A stretch of DNA of 41,675 nucleotides from Candidatus Aquidulcis sp. Lineage in GTDB: Bacteria; Chloroflexota; Anaerolineae; Anaerolineales; UBA4823. Location: assembly GCA_020723385.1 (NCBI GenBank), contig DYIZ01000042.1:1-41675 (forward strand), given 5' to 3'. Numbering within the stretch: the stretch's first letter is position 1; each line of letters opens with the position of its first letter. The translations under genes were made by a program, and so were the position numbers. This document shows positions 6,501 to 31,774 of the stretch, piece after piece. Below the pieces are notes generated by a model, which was not told the DNA's origin, ran no database searches, and saw only the letters and a program-made list of their open reading frames with translations.

Positions 6501-8548
6501 GCTACCATGTTTGGGTTCAAGTTGACTCGACCACCGGGCTTTTGCCGCCCCTCGATAACGGTTTTATCATCAACGTGACCAGCGACACCAGCCTCGATCC
6601 GATAATCCTGCGGGCCCAGGCATCCCGCTCGGCCCAGGTGAGCGGGCAGGTAGTCAATATCGCCACCGGTTTCGGTGTGCCCGGAGCAGTCATCGAAGCC
6701 TGGACAGACAGCGGCGATTGGGTCACTGCCACGACCGATACGGCTGGTTATTACAATCTGTATTTAGCGCCAGGGTTCTGGCACGGCAGCCTGTGGCTGT
6801 CGGAAGCCCAGGCGCAAAATTGGTTCGTCCTCCCGCCGCAAGTGAAAGAAGGTTATGTTGGCGAAGGCGAAATCGTCACCGATGTTAACTTTGTGGTTCG
6901 CTACCGTGATGCACAGATTCAGGGCTTTGTCAGCGATGACCTGGGAGGCCTGGTCACAGACACGGTGGCTGTGGCTTATGCCGCTATGTGCGATACGATT
7001 GATTGCTGGATGGTGGACGTGGGAATGGTCATGGGTGGATACTTCGATCTGCATGTACCTGGAAATGTCACTTACACCGTAGGGGTCTGGCTGCCCGGTA
7101 ATGATTATTTACCCGGCGATCCCGTCTCTGTCCCCGTGGCTCTTGGGCAGACAGTTCAGAATCTACAATTGACGGTAATTCCGGCGAGAACCCGCATCCA
7201 CGGAATTTTGGTTGACCCGGAGCAAGGGCCGGTGCAAATAAATGCCGCCGTCTTTGCCAGCGACGGACAGCACTGGGCTGAAGATTACCTGTGGCCGGAA
7301 AAAGACCCCTATGAGTTTGATCTTCGCATTCCCACCCCGGTGACGAATACCCATTGGGCGGTTGGCTTGTGGGTAGACCCGGCAACCGGATACGTCGCTG
7401 CCCCGGATATGCCCTATGATGTTGAGGTCGGGGCAGGGATTACCAATACCGAGCCGATAACTCTCTACGTCAGACGGTTGGATGCCACGATCACCGGGAC
7501 AATCACCCTCGATGGTAATCCTGCCCCCTACACCTGGGTTTACGCCCGGGGGATCGAAGACACAACCGGCGAGGGGCTGACCTTCGAAGGGATTTCCAGC
7601 CCCGACGGGACTTTCACCATTACCGTCGCCTCCGGCAGCTACCGGGTGGGTGCATACCTGCCTGCCAATCTCTCTGCTGACTACTTCGCGCCGTCTCCAG
7701 TGATTTGGACCACTGCCGCCAACAACCCGGTGAGCCTGGCCTTCACGCCCAAAGGAGAGATCGAAATCAGCGGAAGCCTGGCGATCTTGCCCACCGGAGC
7801 CATCACGGACACCGCTGTTATTCACGTTTTCGGCGCTTCAGAACTCGGTTACGTCGAAGTCACCGGCACCCTGGCGGGCGGTTATCACCTGTCAGCAGCC
7901 CCCAACACCCGCTGGACATTGTGGGCCGCATACGAAGACGCGGCCACCGATACCTATTATCTCAGCCAGATTACCTCGGTCGAGGTTGAGACAACCACAG
8001 TGACCGGGATCAACCTGGCCCTGGCTGGAGCATCGGATGCACTGCCCGACGCCCAATGTTGGGTCTTTGACTCGTCGCAGCTCATGCGCCTGAACCTGCC
8101 GGGGAGCGGCGGCCAGCCTGGGCCGGTCGTGACCATTCCGGCGGGCGCGTTCCCGGTGGATGGACAGGTGTCTGTGTGCGCCACGCCGCGTGTCGCTGTC
8201 CCAGGCGGCAACGACCTGATCGGCTTTGCCTACGAGCTGGAAGCGCGTGACAGCCAGGGTAACCTGATCACTGAGGATTTCAACAAGAAAGTGCGCATCA
8301 GCTTTTACGTGGATCCCGGCCAGCTCCCGCCAGGGGTTGACCTGGCCAGCTTACAGGTTGTGTTCTTCTCCACCTCCCGGCAGGAATGGGTGGCATTGGT
8401 AGACCTTTACATTGATCCGGTGACCGGGTTGGTGACCGGTACGACGCAGCATTTTACTAAGTTTGGCGTCAGAACCGGGTTCGCAGGAGAAGAAGAGGGT
8501 TATTACCTCTATCTGCCTGTCGTTGTCAGAGATACAGGGAGCCGATAA
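3569..8548 (+). CDS. Large exported protein with about 14 Cna-B/carboxypeptidase-regulatory-like modules and C-terminal YLPVV tag
   Basis: 1659 residues. The N-terminus has basic residues and a hydrophobic stretch (about 19-44, SLIIVACFLIPLGLLVATL), a signal peptide or anchor. The body repeats roughly every 90-110 residues a pattern G-x-V-x-D-P...(G/P)...V-x-(L/V)...G-x-F...(L/V)PAG-x-Y, seen for example in FDGMVYTPDF, VQGKVFDPEG, VTGEIFDP, IRGRVLDPFGQ, LSGTVTFEGG, VSGQVVNIATG and ITGTITLDGNP; about 14 such starts can be counted. This is the carboxypeptidase-regulatory/Cna-B prealbumin-like fold. A C-terminal module (about 1490-1640) resembles ZU5-like beta domains. The chain ends in YYLYLPVVVRDTGSR, a variant of the C-terminal tag shared with other exported proteins here. 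Start chosen by TAAGGAGGA five bases upstream. A terminator follows, so the gene is monocistronic. No enzymatic motif seen; a surface stalk or adhesive is inferred. Confidence 0.85.
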   Translation: MEYIHQSSADRGGWRPAIRSLIIVACFLIPLGLLVATLKAVNAAVVVQRAPTAWIDGTVFGPGFELIPESTHVRLYKLYPNGACCEYNDALVMAFAGTGSFSIPTEPLAPYLPGTFYIQSEAENMSPWERSVPQPIYITSTNIAYVSPAIRLTYPSFDGMVYTPDFQPVMQYGDVKVFWPGLIGMFPAAHGRYDAGVSYKVGGVPAGTFILQAMPPADSIYDASEPVTVTVIDGSQYSPGGTQIMPPVLLTDPDVMGLVLYPGPLWTPATWISESGMIIGSARVNLHQMDPVNVRNRITASSGQYGFGFNHAGQQYQLWAEPSGVMAITYTNSIPVSFTYTGITITQNLTLTYPSVQGKVFDPEGILVSQCVSVRLIDLAFHHVAVEDEYCGGTDELFRLGGVPDGFYYLDATTPAGAPYLTPSIVYITVTHGSQYDPLGIQYQNLQFRTAPLTVYVTNGSRAEVRVWNDFGFVARQEITPPGPALFDGLSANTTYWVQAWPLGADIPEWANSLQVPIEITGIGQIVNLAFQPPNVTGEIFDPQYGPLPAANHYGVPTYPATVLVMPVGAGDPMIGPTNDAGLFSLNLPAGSYRLEAYPNASNGITLTRSGSITFTVTAPATILPLDPLRLTYPSIRGRVLDPFGQPILTMVDLWSANLDYFDNGSSSLGPGGQYFQFGAMPDGLNYVQAQPPESNPFHYGSSEIYTFTVLPDSQYVFTATQTHSLTLTTANFIGRLEYPPTFSDHFGNPVPEVDVLLRDASSSFLDWAVTDFDGNFYFSGLQPGSYQIVFYLPPELSLDWEAPFGYDNEFTLVTTTQQINRVFTLDYASQTKWLSGTVTFEGGEPVIDARVVAYHQASSQWKTILTDISGNYSMPLGPGRWFVWIEPAVASANWYFNQSWGQWIDYTLPPQINEPQFAHFTVAPAIFYRVIGTVLDPALAPPPLGSTTIHLCTDNGTCFAGPGDNTGGFSIDVLPGSYHVWVQVDSTTGLLPPLDNGFIINVTSDTSLDPIILRAQASRSAQVSGQVVNIATGFGVPGAVIEAWTDSGDWVTATTDTAGYYNLYLAPGFWHGSLWLSEAQAQNWFVLPPQVKEGYVGEGEIVTDVNFVVRYRDAQIQGFVSDDLGGLVTDTVAVAYAAMCDTIDCWMVDVGMVMGGYFDLHVPGNVTYTVGVWLPGNDYLPGDPVSVPVALGQTVQNLQLTVIPARTRIHGILVDPEQGPVQINAAVFASDGQHWAEDYLWPEKDPYEFDLRIPTPVTNTHWAVGLWVDPATGYVAAPDMPYDVEVGAGITNTEPITLYVRRLDATITGTITLDGNPAPYTWVYARGIEDTTGEGLTFEGISSPDGTFTITVASGSYRVGAYLPANLSADYFAPSPVIWTTAANNPVSLAFTPKGEIEISGSLAILPTGAITDTAVIHVFGASELGYVEVTGTLAGGYHLSAAPNTRWTLWAAYEDAATDTYYLSQITSVEVETTTVTGINLALAGASDALPDAQCWVFDSSQLMRLNLPGSGGQPGPVVTIPAGAFPVDGQVSVCATPRVAVPGGNDLIGFAYELEARDSQGNLITEDFNKKVRISFYVDPGQLPPGVDLASLQVVFFSTSRQEWVALVDLYIDPVTGLVTGTTQHFTKFGVRTGFAGEEEGYYLYLPVVVRDTGSR

Positions 8549-24136: not shown

Positions 24137-24169
24137 ATCCGATTCCCGTCAGGCTTGAAGGAGTTATCC

Positions 24170-26140
24170 ATGTCCCTTGCATACACAAGCAAAGGAAAAG
24201 GATCGCGAGTTGCCTGTTGGGGTTACTGCGGCGCCAGCCTGGTACTGGCGTTTGTTTTGCTTGGCTGGGCCTGGATGAGGGCTGAAGCACAGCGCGCCCC
24301 GGCAGAAACACCTACAAACGCATCACCCAAATATTCGAGCTGCGCCATTGCCATCACATCCGACGGCAATACCTTGCTGGTTGTCAACCCTGACTCGAAC
24401 TCGCTGACATTCGTGGATACTGCCAGCCAGGCAGCGATAATAGAGTTGCCAGTTGGGATTGACCCCCGCAGTGTAGCCGTCTCAGCCGATGGGGATACCG
24501 CATTCGTGGCGAATCAAGGCTCCGATGATCTCTCCGTGATTGACCTCCCCTCGCGGGCGGTGGTAGCCACCCTCGGGGTTGGCGACCGCCCTGTGGGAGT
24601 GGCCGTCTCCCCCGGAGGGCGCTTCGCAGCCGTGGCAGAGTCGGGCGCAGACCAGATCCGCATCCTCGATCTCCATGATTTTTCGACGCTTGCCATCCTA
24701 CCCGTCACCGACCGGCCCTATGGGCTTGCATTTATTCCCGGCAGCTCACGGCTGTTGGTCACCCACCTGCTCAACGGAAATGTCACCGCACTCACCCTCC
24801 AGCCTTTCAGAAATTACCTGCCGCTCGTGACAAATGGCCTGACATTGGGAGATTCGAGGCTGATTGCAGAATTCTCAGCCCTCCAACCTCCAACCTTCAA
24901 CCTTCAACCTTCGACCCTCTCCACCTGGCCCAACGTTGCCCCTGCCCCCGCGGTGATCGTCAACGCCGCCGGGACACGCGCCTACCTGCCGCAGACGATG
25001 GCCAATGGCCTGGGGTCGAACACTCAATTCGATACCACCGTGTTTCCCAAGGTCTCGGTGCTCAACCTGGAAACGAACACCCACCAGACCTCCGAGCACA
25101 TTTCGCTGCCCGAAACCGACCGCCCGGTGGGATTACCGTGGGATGTCGCCCTGGCAAAAAATGACACTGAGCTATGGGTGGTGAACTCTGCCAGCAACGA
25201 TGTTTCGGTGATTGACATCAGCAACCCGGCGCATCCCACCCGCGCTGCTAACATCCCGGTGGGTGACAACCCGCGCGGCATTGTGCTGGCGCCAGATGGC
25301 AGCGCCGCGTATGTGAACAATACCCTGGCGGGCACAATCAGCGTAATAGATGCGCAAACTTACACCGTCACGCAGGTGATCACTGTCACCACCATCCCCC
25401 TGCCGCCGGCCCTGCTCGATGGCAAGCGCCTCTATTTTTCCAGCGCTCGTACCGACCTGGCGCAGGCGCGCTGGATCAGTTGTAACACCTGCCACATCGA
25501 AGGCGAAGCCGATGGGCGCACCTGGCTGGTGAAGTATCTGGGCAGTGTGCCGCCCGGAGAGCAGCCGGTCATTCGGCGCAATACCACCAGCCTGCTGGGA
25601 ATGATCGAAACTTACCCGCTGCGCTGGTCAGCCGAGTGGAATGAATCCGCCGACAGCGAGTTCAGCGTCCGTTTCGAGCAATTTGGCGGCGGGCTGATAG
25701 CCGGGGCTATGAATGACACCCGCACCGGCCCTCCCAACCAGGGCCGCTCCTACGATCTGGATTGCCTGGCGCTGTTCATTGACAGCCTGTCCATACCAGC
25801 CAGGAATCATACCCTCACCGAAGCCGAACTGCGCGGCAAAGCCATCTTCGAGTCGCCGCAGACGCAGTGTGCGGTTTGCCACCCGGCTCCGTTGTACACC
25901 GACCTGCAGGTTCATGATGTCGGCACCGCCGACGGGCCGGGTGAGTGGTTCGGCCCGTTGATTGACACACCCACGCTGCGCTTCCTCTACGACAGTTCTC
26001 CCTATCTGCACGACGGAAGCGCGGCAACGCTTTATGATGTGCTGGTGACGAAGAATCCCGACGATGAGCACGGCGTTACCTCGTCACTCACCAGTCAGGA
26101 AATGCAAGACCTGCTTGCATTCTTGCTGGCATTGCCATAG
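24170..26140 (+). CDS. Exported beta-propeller (YVTN-type) protein fused to a di-heme MauG/peroxidase-like cytochrome domain
   Basis: 656 residues from the ATG preceded by GAAGGAG. Signal sequence about 18-40. Residues 55-400 hold YVTN-type propeller repeats (LLVVNPDSNSLTFVDT, AFVANQGSDDLSVIDL, LWVVNSASNDVSVIDI, AYVNNTLAGTISVIDA). The C-terminal 220 residues carry two c-type haem motifs, CNTCH (438-442) and CAVCH (567-571), with LTEAELRGKAIFESP before the second and FLYDSSPYLHDG after it, as in MauG/cytochrome c peroxidase-like di-haem proteins. An internal NYLPLVTNG (215-223), matching the C-terminal tags of neighbours, is followed by a translated heptamer tract, so this region looks like an insertion or fusion joint. 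No terminal tag. Ten bases before the next gene: operon. A periplasmic/exoplasmic redox role is inferred. Confidence 0.83.
   Translation: MSLAYTSKGKGSRVACWGYCGASLVLAFVLLGWAWMRAEAQRAPAETPTNASPKYSSCAIAITSDGNTLLVVNPDSNSLTFVDTASQAAIIELPVGIDPRSVAVSADGDTAFVANQGSDDLSVIDLPSRAVVATLGVGDRPVGVAVSPGGRFAAVAESGADQIRILDLHDFSTLAILPVTDRPYGLAFIPGSSRLLVTHLLNGNVTALTLQPFRNYLPLVTNGLTLGDSRLIAEFSALQPPTFNLQPSTLSTWPNVAPAPAVIVNAAGTRAYLPQTMANGLGSNTQFDTTVFPKVSVLNLETNTHQTSEHISLPETDRPVGLPWDVALAKNDTELWVVNSASNDVSVIDISNPAHPTRAANIPVGDNPRGIVLAPDGSAAYVNNTLAGTISVIDAQTYTVTQVITVTTIPLPPALLDGKRLYFSSARTDLAQARWISCNTCHIEGEADGRTWLVKYLGSVPPGEQPVIRRNTTSLLGMIETYPLRWSAEWNESADSEFSVRFEQFGGGLIAGAMNDTRTGPPNQGRSYDLDCLALFIDSLSIPARNHTLTEAELRGKAIFESPQTQCAVCHPAPLYTDLQVHDVGTADGPGEWFGPLIDTPTLRFLYDSSPYLHDGSAATLYDVLVTKNPDDEHGVTSSLTSQEMQDLLAFLLALP
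24881..24915. repeat. Heptamer tract (CTTCAAC)5, translated
   Basis: Five tandem units, CTCCAAC, CTCCAAC, CTTCAAC, CTTCAAC and CTTCGAC, lie in frame in the propeller-cytochrome gene and encode LQPPTFNLQPST. The same unit, in both orientations, occurs at the end of the histidine kinase gene (38601-38682). Confidence 0.75.
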
Positions 26141-26150
26141 GAGAAACCTC

Positions 26151-29100
26151 ATGATGCTCAAGTCCATTCTCAAAACCCTTTTTGCCCAAATTTTGCCTCT
26201 GATGATAGCGGCTGCTCTTGTCTCGGTGTTCGACAGAAAAACCATGGAACCCAGGCAGCCTGACTTGCCCAACGCAATCGTGTCCGGAGTTGTCCGTCAC
26301 GATGGCAGCCCGGTATCTGGCATCACCGTCCACGTCATTTGGAGCGACGGCAGCCAGGAGGTGACGACTGGCGCGGATGGCATCTACAATGTCAGTGGCG
26401 TGCCCACCGGTGGTTGGATCCAGATTTTCGTCCGCCCGCCGGTGGCCATGCGGCTGGCCTTCCGCAACTATGGCATCAATCCGCTGACTGGCGACCTGGC
26501 GCAGGATTTCGACCTGCAAGACGGCTATCTGCTCGAGGGTGAATTTCACCAACCGGATGGAACATTGTTCGATCGCACATTCTGGTTGCAGGCCAACCCG
26601 ATGAATAACCCGCCCCCGGCCGGCGAATGGTTAGGAGAGACTGTTTTCAATGGTCAATTCCAGGTGGTTCTCCCCCCCGATGAATACCGGTTGACAATTG
26701 ACCCAACGCCGTTGCCTTATTACATGCCGCGCACAAACGTGGATTTGCAGACGGGCGATGTGACCGGCCTGGTAATCACCCTGCTGGAGGAGCGAGAGCC
26801 CGCCGTGCCTACCATCCCGCCCAATGCCAGCCTGATCACGGTCGGCAATCCCAACAGCGATGGGGTCGCCACCGTTTCGGGGTCAGCGGGCGCGGTCGAT
26901 ACCCTGGCCCGTGTGGTGGTGGTCAATCTCGACACGCACAGCCTGGCGCTTACGTATGCCGAAGCCGATGGCTCTTTCAGCCTGGAGGTGTTTGCCCCGC
27001 CCGGCTCGACGCTGTTGGTGAAATATGATCCTGACTACTGGCGCACCGCAGCGCTTTTGAATGAGATTCAGACGGCGACCGGCGCGGTCACCTATCTCGA
27101 GTTCAACCCGCTGCCGGGGGCGATGATCAATGTCGGTGAACCTGCGCAGGGCGCCGGGCACACCCAGGATTTTTTCAGTGCGGGTGGATTTATTGAAGGC
27201 CCAAGTACATCCACACACGGCAAATGGTCGGGTTGGTGGTTGAGCGGAACAGTGGATGCGCCTGCCGGGCCGCCGCTCAGAGTCAATCCCGGCCAGCAGG
27301 TCTCGTTGAATGACCTGGTCGTGCATGTTTATTCTCCGGCGATGAATTGCACTGGCGTTCCCACGACCACCGTGGGAATGGAAGTGGGCTTGAGATACCT
27401 GTTTGGTTTGAATGGCAGCCCCCACCCAACCGGGATGTGGTTTACATCCAATCTATTCACCCCCACTGGCCTACCGATCGAACATGAAGGTGGCGGTGAA
27501 TCTATCTGGATGGGCCATGTTACCTTCAGTAGTTTTACCTGCGCCAGCCTTCACGCTGCCGTTAGCGAGAACAAGGACATCACTTTCACTGTGCCGGTGG
27601 ATTTGCCAGAGGGAACCTATCAGATTGAGGCCTGGCTTGGGGCAAGCGGCGTACCGAAGGCGGATGTCAGCGTCCACCCATTCGCCAGCGTTTGGTATCA
27701 TTCAGCCGAAAACGCCAATATGCCTATCCTCACGGTTGGCGATGCCCAATCGCCTCACATTCCCTGGACGCTGCTGGGCGATTACCCCGTGGACGGCCGG
27801 CGCGGCGTGGGGGCGCGTGAAGATATCGGGGTGTACGCCATGCCCGACCGGGTGGTTTATTCACCGGAACGGTATGTCGTCCCCAGGCTGGATGCTCGCA
27901 CCGGCGAGGCGCTGGTTTACCGGCTGGAACCAGGCTCTCACTGGCTTTCAGCCACCGATCGCCGTTTCCCCAACCCGCCGCGGGTGCAGATCAAACCGGA
28001 TTCGGGCATGCTCACCGTGACCATCCACAAACCAGATGGCACAACCCAGGTGCTTGGCCCCGCGCCGATAGACCAGACCTCCCAGCGCACCCCCACCACC
28101 CAAAGCGGCAGCGGCATCGCCGAAGGCACAGGCCAGATTGCCGATCTGTACCACCTTACCAACGCCGATGATGTGTTCGCCTACAGCTTCGATCAGTATG
28201 GCCGCCATGTGATTACGTTGAGCGGCAGCGTGAAGGATATTTACGGGCGGCCTTATGCGATCCAGGGCACTTACGATCTCGAAGTCGCCCGCGTTCTCGA
28301 CCTGGACTCCGCCCAATTGCCGACGACGCCCTATGTTCAGGGGGATGCTTTTGCCCCAGGGCTGCACGTCTTCCCGCCGGTTCCGGCCCAGGTGACCGTT
28401 GTTTTGACACATCTCCCTTATTCCGACCCAGCCCAGTCAATCACGAGTATCGTTTCCGGCCAAGCCAACCGCTTTGGCTACTTCCAGCCCCCGGCTGGCA
28501 CGGAGATCCGTTTCGACGATCCCGGCGAATTTCGCGTCGACATCACCGCGGTATTTACCGATACCGATGGCACGCTGTGGATGGGCAGCCAGACCTGGGG
28601 CAGCGTGGTCGAGGGGATAGATGCGCTCATCGAAGCCCACGGGCGGCGCGGCATGGATTATCACAGCGATACGATTGACGATATGCCCGCCTGGTTCGAG
28701 GTGTTCAACCTGCCCGCAGAGAAAGTCGGCATCGAGAATTACTACCCCTACTTCAGCGGCGACATTCACTGGGGCAACGAAGACAATGCCCCGGGCGACT
28801 CGATCCACTCGATCATCACCATCAAGGATTTGACGCCAGGCGGGGATATTTACGATCTGATGGTTGCCAACTATCCGCGCTCGCGCAATGGCTTCCGTTG
28901 GCCTCCAGACGATACATCGTTGGCTGGTTTACAAAAACGGCTGGACGTGGGCGAAGCGCCGCTCTTCCTCTCGACAGTCACCGGGCGGGACGCGGGCGTG
29001 TTTCCCGAGCAGATTGACCAGTGGGCTTACTGGTATGGTTCCTCGGAGCGGCCGGATGTCCATGTGCGCGAAATCATCTCCGAAGACAATATGGGCACCG

Positions 29101-30113
29101 CCTACTGGCGTTTCGACGACACATACAATATGCAGATTGGCGAGGGGGCCATGGGCGACCTGCCCGGCGATCTGAAATGGGAGTTTGGCGGGGCGGTCTA
29201 TCGCGTACCGGGGGAGGGCATTGCCGAATATGCGATTTACTCCTCGCTGTGGGTGCTGCTGCCGCACGGCGACCCGGTGGGGGCGCGGGTCACCCCGCCG
29301 TTCCAGTTTGCCGCCGGGGGCATGAACGGCGGACCGATCCTGACGCTGAACGGTGAGGCTATTGACATGCTCTTCCTGCCCAAAGGCGTGCGCCCCGGCG
29401 ATGTGCTCGAAGTCGGCGATACGGTCAGTTTTTCCGGCCACGTCGGCCCGCCGCTCGACAGCCGCGTGGATGTGACAATCACCTCCCCTAGCGGTGTGGC
29501 GCACACCCGTTCCTGGCACGCCAACAAGATCGGCTGGCTGTACGACCCGACCTTTGACTTCGTCGCCAACGAGCCGGGCCGCTGGTGGGTGGAAGTATCT
29601 GTGGAGCACGACCGGCCCTATCTCCCCACCGGGCTGACTCCGACCAGCCACAACACTGGCACGGTGCTGGGAACGGGTGCGGAATACATGTTTTTCGTGG
29701 TCGAGCCACAGTCGCCGCGGCTTCTGCTCACCTCGCCGCAGCCTGGTTTTATCACCTGGCCCAGCGGGCATATCGAGCCAATCCACATTCGCGGCGTCGC
29801 GCCTGCTGGCACGACCGGCGTGCATTACACGATTCATGATAAAGGCATCGTGATGGGACAGGGCACGGTTATCCCTGACGCCAGTGGGGCGTTCACGGTG
29901 ACTTATGACGCTGTATCCTTGCATCAGATTTTCTCCATGATCAGCCTGACGGCGCACGAAGGCCAGTGGGAGGGCCTGGCCGACGAGGTGGAAATCAACC
30001 TGTTGGCGATGACCCCCTCCGGCCCGCGCGCCAACACGGTAACGTTGATCGGCGAGGAGGTATTTGTTGGGGGTCATATCCAACGGGTATATTTACCGAT
30101 AGTCAGGAGATGA
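26151..30113 (+). CDS. Giant exported protein of the cytochrome operon with C-terminal VYLPIVRR tag
   Basis: 1320 residues; ATG 26151 (or 26154) follows GGAGAA. An N-terminal hydrophobic segment (about 5-25, ILKTLFAQILPLMIAAALVSV) serves for export. Residues 40-110 form a carboxypeptidase-regulatory-like module (VSGVVRHDGSPVSGITVHV, TTGADGIYNVSGVPTGGW). The large middle is not recognised; it contains long beta-rich stretches and a conserved-looking region around 860-960 rich in His, Asp and Trp (MDYHSDTIDDMPAWF, YFSGDIHWGNEDNAPGDS) that could bind metal. Near the end are Ig-like modules (VTITSPSGVAHTRSWHANKI, LLLTSPQPGFITWPSGHIEP). The last residues are IQRVYLPIVRR. It lies between two c-type cytochrome genes with almost no spacers, so it probably works with them at the cell surface. 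No haem motif of its own. Confidence 0.78.
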   Translation: MMLKSILKTLFAQILPLMIAAALVSVFDRKTMEPRQPDLPNAIVSGVVRHDGSPVSGITVHVIWSDGSQEVTTGADGIYNVSGVPTGGWIQIFVRPPVAMRLAFRNYGINPLTGDLAQDFDLQDGYLLEGEFHQPDGTLFDRTFWLQANPMNNPPPAGEWLGETVFNGQFQVVLPPDEYRLTIDPTPLPYYMPRTNVDLQTGDVTGLVITLLEEREPAVPTIPPNASLITVGNPNSDGVATVSGSAGAVDTLARVVVVNLDTHSLALTYAEADGSFSLEVFAPPGSTLLVKYDPDYWRTAALLNEIQTATGAVTYLEFNPLPGAMINVGEPAQGAGHTQDFFSAGGFIEGPSTSTHGKWSGWWLSGTVDAPAGPPLRVNPGQQVSLNDLVVHVYSPAMNCTGVPTTTVGMEVGLRYLFGLNGSPHPTGMWFTSNLFTPTGLPIEHEGGGESIWMGHVTFSSFTCASLHAAVSENKDITFTVPVDLPEGTYQIEAWLGASGVPKADVSVHPFASVWYHSAENANMPILTVGDAQSPHIPWTLLGDYPVDGRRGVGAREDIGVYAMPDRVVYSPERYVVPRLDARTGEALVYRLEPGSHWLSATDRRFPNPPRVQIKPDSGMLTVTIHKPDGTTQVLGPAPIDQTSQRTPTTQSGSGIAEGTGQIADLYHLTNADDVFAYSFDQYGRHVITLSGSVKDIYGRPYAIQGTYDLEVARVLDLDSAQLPTTPYVQGDAFAPGLHVFPPVPAQVTVVLTHLPYSDPAQSITSIVSGQANRFGYFQPPAGTEIRFDDPGEFRVDITAVFTDTDGTLWMGSQTWGSVVEGIDALIEAHGRRGMDYHSDTIDDMPAWFEVFNLPAEKVGIENYYPYFSGDIHWGNEDNAPGDSIHSIITIKDLTPGGDIYDLMVANYPRSRNGFRWPPDDTSLAGLQKRLDVGEAPLFLSTVTGRDAGVFPEQIDQWAYWYGSSERPDVHVREIISEDNMGTAYWRFDDTYNMQIGEGAMGDLPGDLKWEFGGAVYRVPGEGIAEYAIYSSLWVLLPHGDPVGARVTPPFQFAAGGMNGGPILTLNGEAIDMLFLPKGVRPGDVLEVGDTVSFSGHVGPPLDSRVDVTITSPSGVAHTRSWHANKIGWLYDPTFDFVANEPGRWWVEVSVEHDRPYLPTGLTPTSHNTGTVLGTGAEYMFFVVEPQSPRLLLTSPQPGFITWPSGHIEPIHIRGVAPAGTTGVHYTIHDKGIVMGQGTVIPDASGAFTVTYDAVSLHQIFSMISLTAHEGQWEGLADEVEINLLAMTPSGPRANTVTLIGEEVFVGGHIQRVYLPIVRR

Positions 30114-30124
30114 TGGAGGCCAGT

Positions 30125-31774
30125 ATGTCTCGCAGGAAGTGGCTTGTGTGTGTCAGCATAGCCCTGACTATCTTTGGCGTAACGCTGGCGCTCTACGCGG
30201 CATCAGCCCGCCCGGCGGTAAGCGCCAGCGGGCTTTCCCCGGGCAACATCGAGGGGATGGTGGTTGATGAGGGGGGTAATCCCGTCGCCGGGGCGACTGT
30301 ACGCATCCAGGCAACGGTCAACAGCACTCTGAGCGGGCCAGACGGCGGCTTTACCCTGGATGGCCTGGCTGAAGGCAACCCGGTGACGATCAGCGCCTGG
30401 AAGGAAGCGTATTATTGCGCCAAAGCCGAGGGCGTGACGCCGCCCGCCAGCGGCATCACGCTCACACTACGCCTCTACCAAACGAATGACAATCCCGATT
30501 ACGAGTGGATTCCCCCCACCGGGGCAAATTCCTGCTACAGTTGCAAACCCGGGGTGACCGACATCTGGCTGAATAATGATCTGCACGCCCGGTCTGGCAC
30601 GAATCCCCGCTTCTTCTCGCTCTACAACGGCACGGACATTACCGGCACAACCGTCATCTCGCCCGGCTATAAGCTGGATTTCCCCGGCACGGCGGGCAAC
30701 TGCGCCACCTGCCATGCTCCTGGCGCGGCGGTTGACGCGCCCTTCACCACAGAGATGAATTTGTTGGCCGGGACAGACCGTGAATTCGGCGTGCATTGCG
30801 ATTTCTGTCATAAGGTGGCAGATGTTTATCTCAACCCGGCGACCGGCCTGCCTTACCCGAATGCTCCCGGCGTCCTCTCGCTGGATGTTCGCCGCCCCTT
30901 CCCTGCTTCACCGCGCTACCAACTCTTTTTTGGCACCTTCGATGATGACAACGTTCCCGAGGAGGATACATACCTGCCGCTGATCGCAAAGAGCCAGTGG
31001 TGCGCCGCCTGCCACCAATTCAGCTTCTGGGGGACGCCCATTTATCAAAGTTACCAAGAATGGCTGGAAAGCCCCTATCCCCAGTTAGGCGTCGAGTGCC
31101 AGACCTGTCACATGCCATCGGACGGCATCATGACCAATGTTGCTCCTGGCATGGGCGGCGTGGAGCGTGACCCGCTCACCATCCACGCTCACACCATGCC
31201 CGGCGCGGCCAGCGAGACGTTGCTGCAAAACACGGTTTCTATGAGCGTGACCACCCAGACGGTTGGCAACACGGTGGTAGTTACAGTAACATTGACCAAT
31301 ACTGGTGCGGGCCATCACGTGCCAACAGATCACCCCGGGCGGCATCTGATTTTGACGGTCGCCGCGATGGACGGGGGCGGGCAGCCGCTGTTCCAATTGC
31401 AGGGGGGGATAGTCCCCCAGTGGGGCGGCGCGCAGGCCGGGCTGCCCGGCAAGGCTTTCGCTAAAGTATTGAGAGATGCAATCACCGGTGAATATCCGGT
31501 GGTCAGTTACTGGAAACAGACCTTAATCGTCAGCGACAATCGCCTCCCGGCTTTTGGACGCGATATTTCGGTGTACCGGTTTGCCGCACCGCCTGGGGGA
31601 GGCCCGGTCACGGTGGATGTCGCGCTGCTCTTTCGGAGGGTCTTTCGGGCCGAGATAGACGCCCGTGGCTGGGATGCGCCCGATATTCTCATGGAGACGG
31701 CGCATAACGATTTGTCCGCCCAGCCCTGGTGGGTGTGTTATTTGCCGTTGGTAACACAGTCTTCAGGGAAGTAG
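30125..31774 (+). CDS. Exported multihaem cytochrome c (one CxxCK, four CxxCH) with C-terminal YLPLV tag
   Basis: 549 residues. ATG 30125 is preferred because GGAGG lies five bases upstream; ATG 30110, overlapping the previous stop (ATGA), is the alternative. Signal peptide about 6-34. Residues 40-115 form a carboxypeptidase-regulatory-like module (IEGMVVDEGGNPVAGATVRI). Then haem motifs: CYSCK (137-141), CATCH (193-197), CDFCH (225-229), CAACH (293-297), CQTCH (325-329). The first motif, with its W...HAR follow-up, sits where c554-like cytochromes have CxxCH-P...W..S.HA; here the ligand position is Lys (AAA codon). A beta domain follows with TNTGAGHHVPT, typical of this family. An internal YLPLIAK is at 283-289 and the tail is CYLPLVTQSSGK. 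Likely an exoplasmic electron carrier or reductase; substrate unknown. Confidence 0.85.
   Translation: MSRRKWLVCVSIALTIFGVTLALYAASARPAVSASGLSPGNIEGMVVDEGGNPVAGATVRIQATVNSTLSGPDGGFTLDGLAEGNPVTISAWKEAYYCAKAEGVTPPASGITLTLRLYQTNDNPDYEWIPPTGANSCYSCKPGVTDIWLNNDLHARSGTNPRFFSLYNGTDITGTTVISPGYKLDFPGTAGNCATCHAPGAAVDAPFTTEMNLLAGTDREFGVHCDFCHKVADVYLNPATGLPYPNAPGVLSLDVRRPFPASPRYQLFFGTFDDDNVPEEDTYLPLIAKSQWCAACHQFSFWGTPIYQSYQEWLESPYPQLGVECQTCHMPSDGIMTNVAPGMGGVERDPLTIHAHTMPGAASETLLQNTVSMSVTTQTVGNTVVVTVTLTNTGAGHHVPTDHPGRHLILTVAAMDGGGQPLFQLQGGIVPQWGGAQAGLPGKAFAKVLRDAITGEYPVVSYWKQTLIVSDNRLPAFGRDISVYRFAAPPGGGPVTVDVALLFRRVFRAEIDARGWDAPDILMETAHNDLSAQPWWVCYLPLVTQSSGK

Follow-up and report, generated by a model that had tools for sequence, protein, structure and literature searches.

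The residue that follows the first C-x-x-C site of a secreted cytochrome from Candidatus Aquidulcis sp. is a lysine, K141, and in homologues of this protein the same position is taken by His, Lys or Met, with accompanying changes inside the motif and in a loop elsewhere in the chain. The gene lies in the 41,675-nucleotide stretch of DNA that we analysed as a whole and call the window (GenBank assembly GCA_020723385.1, contig DYIZ01000042.1). Its modelled fold places the protein among pentahaem cytochromes of the ExtKL / Thermochromatium tepidum c552 type and not with NrfA. We consider it likely, with a chance of roughly two in three, that haem I is attached, that K141 is its proximal ligand, and that this represents a natural ligand exchange which tunes haem I.

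Fold and family of the cytochrome

The open reading frame contains in-frame ATG codons at 30110, 30113 and 30125, and its stop codon ends at 31774; residues are numbered from the ATG at 30125. The predicted protein consists of an N-terminal signal or anchor, recognised by inspection, a CarboxypepD_reg domain, the haem domain, a C-terminal beta domain and a YLPLV tail (Table 1). The original prediction of a CYSCK motif followed by four CxxCH motifs was confirmed in frame, with K141 preceding CATCH, CDFCH, CAACH and CQTCH. A search of the same genome with the cytochrome gave one match at E ≤ 0.001.

Table 1 Features of the cytochrome gene and its upstream neighbours in the window. Row counts refer to the 172 aligned homologues; K and H rows are those with Lys or His at the position of K141.
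Feature	Position	Strand	Evidence or remark
Secreted pentahaem cytochrome, 549 aa	30125..31774	+	ORF; AlphaFold2 model, mean pLDDT 88.6; 5ze8, Z 31.2
CarboxypepD_reg domain, residues 42-109	30248..30451	+	PF13620, 41 bits, cut-off 32.3
Haem I motif CYSCK (TGC TAC AGT TGC AAA), residues 137-141, K141 in place of the proximal His	30533..30547	+	
H154, free His of the W..S.HA-like element WLNNDLHARS	30584..30586	+	H in 158/172, M in 9/172 rows
Haem II motif CATCH, residues 193-197	30701..30715	+	
Haem III motif CDFCH, residues 225-229	30797..30811	+	
Loop 274-281 (DDNVPEED)	30944..30967	+	Sequence tracks ligand state (D275 with K, R277 and V281 with M)
Haem IV motif CAACH, residues 293-297	31001..31015	+	
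Haem V motif CQTCH, residues 325-329	31097..31111	+	
A355-H356, free His and neighbouring Ala	31187..31192	+	A in 16/17 K rows, 4/139 H rows
H397, free His of the GHHVPT stretch	31313..31315	+	H in 166/172 rows, gap in 6
1349-aa secreted protein, upstream neighbour in nearest relatives	26064..30113	+	PF13620 over cut-off
Protein with beta-propeller and two CxxCH (CNTCH, CAVCH)	24155..26140	+	Neighbour in some relatives

Tails similar to YLPLV, YLPIV or YMPLA end seven of the 23 frames of the window (for instance VYLPIVRR and CYLPLVTQSSGK), and the genes concerned end at 8548, 14633, 17714, 20914, 30113, 31774 and 37427. They perhaps represent a shared sorting tail.

An AlphaFold2 model was built from an alignment of 45 rows and evaluated through its fold matches. 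Its best match among solved structures was the pentahaem c552 structure 5ze8 (r.m.s.d. 2.6 over 337 residues, model residues 125-530, 24% identity), while the matches listed after it had Z below 12 and were mostly to single beta domains. Profile searches gave E-values of 7.1e-32 for 5ze8 and 4.1e-13 for MccSep (9wt8), and a weak match (E 0.0025) to 6i5b, which we take to be OcwA. The five haem motifs follow the same order in 5ze8, and the histidines of its W..S.HA, DHSM and PHAMPT elements align with H154, H356 and H397. The two proteins differ at haem I, which is CANCH in 5ze8, and the aligned range omits the CarboxypepD_reg domain of the query. The selenoprotein MccSep, for which no paper was found in the open-access literature, likewise differs in having CIECH at haem I; its selenocysteine appears as X in the printed chain. 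By reading of the profile alignment, this selenocysteine aligns with H403 (31331-31333), in a column that is variable among the homologues (S, F, A, H, Y and V being commonest).

One pentahaem family comprising ExtKL, Gsu2801 and the PHCs of cable bacteria is proposed in PMC11976967, where small PHCs are described as structurally similar to T. tepidum c552 and to the archaeal nanowire AvECN, with haems I, III, IV and V aligned with the four haems of AvECN. Because of this proposal and the matches to 5ze8 and MccSep, we place the cytochrome in the pentahaem fold family and not with NrfA. It shares with that family the fold of the haem and C-terminal beta domains, the order of the five C-x-x-C sites, and three free histidines. 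The NCBIfam model for ExtKL (NF040886) scored 31.2 bits, below its cut-off of 250.

The parallel to NrfA drawn in the original prediction holds only for the order of the motifs, as NrfA also has CxxCK followed by four CxxCH. In Pfam, PF02335 (NrfA) gave no match to the cytochrome at E ≤ 0.1 and 410.8 bits for the NrfA of the same genome, and on the missing match and the fold partner 5ze8 we reject NrfA membership. The NrfA fold has long C-terminal helices; the C-terminal part of the model consists mainly of strands. Neither NrfA nor c554 nor OcwA appeared among the best 50 matches of either fold comparison, an absence that carries no weight against a more distant resemblance. A resemblance of the surroundings to c554-type cytochromes, also noted at the outset, was borne out by the W..S.HA-like element around H154 and by PF13435 (Cytochrome_C554), which scored 21.4 bits, just over its cut-off of 20.8, with the best stretch covering only residues 189-229. 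OcwA differs in that its open haems lack a CXXCK motif (PMC6703420).

Residues at the haem I ligand position in homologues

Homologues were kept at E ≤ 1e-8, and duplicates were removed based on the last 400 residues, which left 172 aligned rows including a few fragments and frame-broken rows. Genomes were sampled at the level of phylum (400), class (396), order (400) and family (38), with matches at the set cut-offs in 7, at least 79, 37 and 8 genomes, respectively. At class level, 40 of the listed places that lacked a locus were fetched, and a further eight genomes of genus g447 were not included.

The column of K141 contains H in 139 rows, K in 17, M in 12 and a gap in 4, and nothing else. 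The proximal histidines of haems II, III, IV and V are present in 167, 166, 165 and 167 of the 172 rows, the rest being gaps apart from a single A at haem IV. Both cysteines of haem I are retained in every K row and every M row, and C137, C140 and H154 are invariant in the 111 nearest rows, a set without H rows that are short or below 40% identity. Since the column is restricted to three residues, and the cysteines, H154 and the other proximal histidines are conserved, we regard haem I as a site at which the identity of the ligand changes and the remainder is kept. Only three free histidines (154, 356 and 397) are nearly invariant over the 172 rows, for five haems.

The concern that the lysine might be unique to this sequence was contradicted by the 17 K rows. 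As to its conservation in orthologues, K141 recurs but is a minority state beside H, with M as a further alternative. Among the window sequence and its 16 CxSCK relatives, lysine is encoded by AAA and AAG and serine by both AGY and TCN. His to Lys requires two base changes and His to Met three; in a rough estimate based on BLOSUM62, K or M would account for about 8% of changes from H. We consider the motif to be beyond chance because K recurs, the cysteine pair is kept and synonymous codon families vary.

Evolutionary history of the ligand

A quick tree was calculated for 124 of the 172 rows (94 rows with H, 17 with K, 12 with M and one with a gap) with the motif columns excluded; eight gappy rows and rows below 36% identity were left out. 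On this tree the three states need at least seven changes. A single M clade was rejected (p-AU 1.26e-11), and parsimony indicates four changes to M. Lysine occurs in two places, namely in six rows together with the query and in 11 rows of a group that also holds six H rows. A single K clade was not rejected (p-AU 0.339), so that one origin of K followed by returns to H is possible. Within genus g408, three rows have CxNCH and one has CxHCM, which corresponds to CAT versus ATG and thus three differences in one codon. N-terminal recombination was considered as a source of M and discarded, as the nearest rows of the N- and C-terminal parts mostly agree; for L135, the nearest row of the N-terminal part is an H row.

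Coupled changes in the motif, in loop 274-281 and at residue 355

The residue before the second cysteine is S in all K rows (CxSCK) and H in all M rows (CxHCM), compared to 10 and 11 of the 139 H rows, respectively. We further scanned 494 columns for differences between four M groups (5, 4, 1 and 2 rows) and three sister H groups (9, 3 and 4 rows); the groups were picked from the tree after it had been seen. Only columns 139, 141, 277 and 281 fully separated the M from the H groups, and the next column scored 0.44. The loop reads DDxxRRV[ST] in all 12 M rows, compared with sequences such as DDVPQPDT in sister H rows. H139, R277 and V281 occur together in 12/12 M rows and 0/139 H rows. R277 as such is present in 57 H rows, V281 in eight, and both in eight, none of which has H139. 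Several of these eight rows fall into one large clade together with the second M group (L003, L004, L140, L143). That M group had no sister H group in the scan, and the loop change is supported for the other M groups. In the K rows the loop is DDDN.P.ED without exception, and D275, found in 17/17 of them, occurs in 2/139 H rows. With two to three independent pairs for K and four for M, there are too few for a test of coupling. We read loop 274-281 and residue 355 as probable parts of the haem I pocket.

Haem maturation

At E ≤ 0.001, PF01578 matched only a frame of 702 aa and one of 248 aa in the genome, which is 95.55% complete; by their size these are presumably CcmF and CcmC. A 167-aa frame with KCPTKY (L191, 11906-12406) adjoins the CcmF frame and is taken for a CcmE of the cysteine type, in which Cys replaces the haem-binding His (System I*). 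A cysteine-type CcmE is reported in Chloroflexi (PMC3601427). The search for a dedicated CxxCK lyase of the NrfEFG type, suggested by the original prediction, thus yielded one CcmF-type protein and no second lyase of the CcmF/NrfE type (PF01578, E ≤ 0.001). The NrfA of this genome itself has CYSCK and lies beside a frame with four CxxCH motifs that we take for NrfH.

Among 12 genomes with the K state, several of them incomplete, no second match of CcmF length (>600 aa) was found, and NrfA was detected at E ≤ 1e-30 in three (G000, G543, G730) and not in the other nine, so NrfA was discarded as a predictor of the K state. Likewise, an extra lyase was rejected as a companion of the M state, as more than one lyase match in a frame above 600 aa was present in only two (G192, G950) of 12 M genomes. 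In Shewanella, CcmF is believed to act on CxxCH and CxxCK alike (PMC12285233, PMC6976685), whereas a test protein with CXXCK or with CXXCM, the latter an engineered variant, was not matured by Ccm (PMC4158909). Attachment of haem at CYSCK appears plausible because this motif also occurs in the NrfA of the host, which has one CcmF. The predicted maturation machinery would not be prohibitive for a haem at this site.

Gene neighbourhood

The 1349-aa protein encoded upstream shows only CarboxypepD_reg over the Pfam cut-offs, and nothing matched it in NCBIfam at E ≤ 0.01 or in the PDB at E ≤ 0.1. Of 190 frame-searched loci, many of which have short flanks, 14 contain a relative of this gene next to the cytochrome. 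These comprise K loci (L013, L014, L077, L124 and L125, with L124 and L014 encoding identical cytochromes), H loci (L078, L080, L127, L128, L132, L133 and L137) and M loci (L126 and L130), and all 13 distinct rows fall into the query's subclade of 20 rows. The second K group includes seven loci with long flanks (L015-L019, L021, L022), and the gene was found in none of these seven. As the partner stays while the ligand changes, tuning is favoured over a new function within the query's subclade; because of the seven loci that lack the gene, the argument for one shared function is limited to this subclade.

Relatives of the propeller/di-haem gene occur at L014, L144-L147, L149 and L150, with a short weak match at L152, and also at L135, where the homologous stretch shares a reading frame with the cytochrome; together these loci include K, H and M states. 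The encoded protein scored 146.7 bits (cut-off 1250) against a model of the hydrazine synthase beta-gamma fusion and 31.5 bits (cut-off 443.85) against a MauG model, both far below cut-off, although the architecture is similar.

Possible role of the lysine

Replacement of His by Lys or Met would shift the potential of haem I. We propose that haem I is covalently bound via C137 and C140, with K141 replacing His as proximal ligand. In the family, His, Lys and Met would then alternate in this role, each accompanied by matching changes before the second cysteine, in loop 275-281 and next to H356. Such a swap may adjust haem I, in its potential or in the reactivity of its sixth site, to the exchange of electrons at the cell surface, and a tuned potential would suit the end haem of an electron wire. 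A more tentative and more detailed version, to which we give somewhat less than even odds, holds that each of the three proximal ligands would come with its own motif (CxxCH, CxSCK, CxHCM) and pocket loop, that CxHCM would be a natural c-type haem site with the motif Met for the proximal His, and that CxSCK in this genome would be matured by Ccm with a cysteine-type CcmE and no dedicated lyase.

It appears rather unlikely that the distal side of haem I is open and that the lysine creates an NrfA-like catalytic site for the reduction of nitrite, hydroxylamine or selenite. In NrfA, the catalytic haem is the one bound at CxxCK (PMC8840924), and a grouping of pentahaem relatives regards them as potentially catalytic, with haems that are pentacoordinate (PMC11976967). 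OcwA, a surface cytochrome related to c554 and NrfA, is able to reduce nitrite, and two of its haems are open (PMC6703420). The small number of nearly invariant free histidines, and the lack of the 1349-aa gene in the seven long-flanked loci of the second K group, would also agree with a reductase. However, haem 2 is the active haem of c554 and of the half of OcwA that resembles c554, although OcwA has a second open haem, number 5, which superposes on haem 1 of NrfA (PMC6703420); by analogy CATCH would be the likelier substrate site here. The missing match to PF02335 and the retention of the 1349-aa partner across ligand states in the query's subclade speak against this reading as well.

Less probable still is a loss of haem I, also raised by the original prediction, with the cysteines joined in a disulfide or holding a different metal and the lysine no more than a leftover. 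The failure of Ccm on the test protein fits this idea, CxHCM could suit a soft metal, and D275 could form a salt bridge with a charged K141 that ligates no haem, which is also a counterpoint to lysine ligation as such. Yet such a loss looks unlikely because both cysteines and H154 are kept and only H, K or M occur at the ligand position; the coupled changes at 139, 275/277/281 and 355 and the retention of K and S through synonymous codon changes point the same way. An error of sequencing or assembly, or a local decay in one genome, has a negligible chance, and sequencing error is rejected as the source of CYSCK because CxSCK recurs among 17 distinct homologues that come from many assemblies.

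If ligand exchange at haem I is the correct reading, a natural Lys or Met haem c motif would exist outside NrfA and the octahaem nitrite reductases, from which natural CxxCK is known (PMC12285233), and the CxxCH rule would be looser than held. For CxxCM, no natural haem motif was found in the open-access literature. The family would furthermore offer naturally occurring series of almost identical proteins in which a single axial ligand varies, and a test of what decides haem attachment by System I. Counting CxxCH alone would then underestimate the number of haems in this pentahaem family.

Two further groups of homologues deviate from the common pattern. Nine rows (L059, L061-L063, L065, L067, L069-L071), several of them from anammox bacteria to judge by their titles, have CKKCH at haem I and Met in place of H154. 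Six longer frames (L170, L171, L174-L177) contain 7-11 CxxCH and apparently consist of tandem pentahaem units; L170 and L171 each carry one CxHCM.
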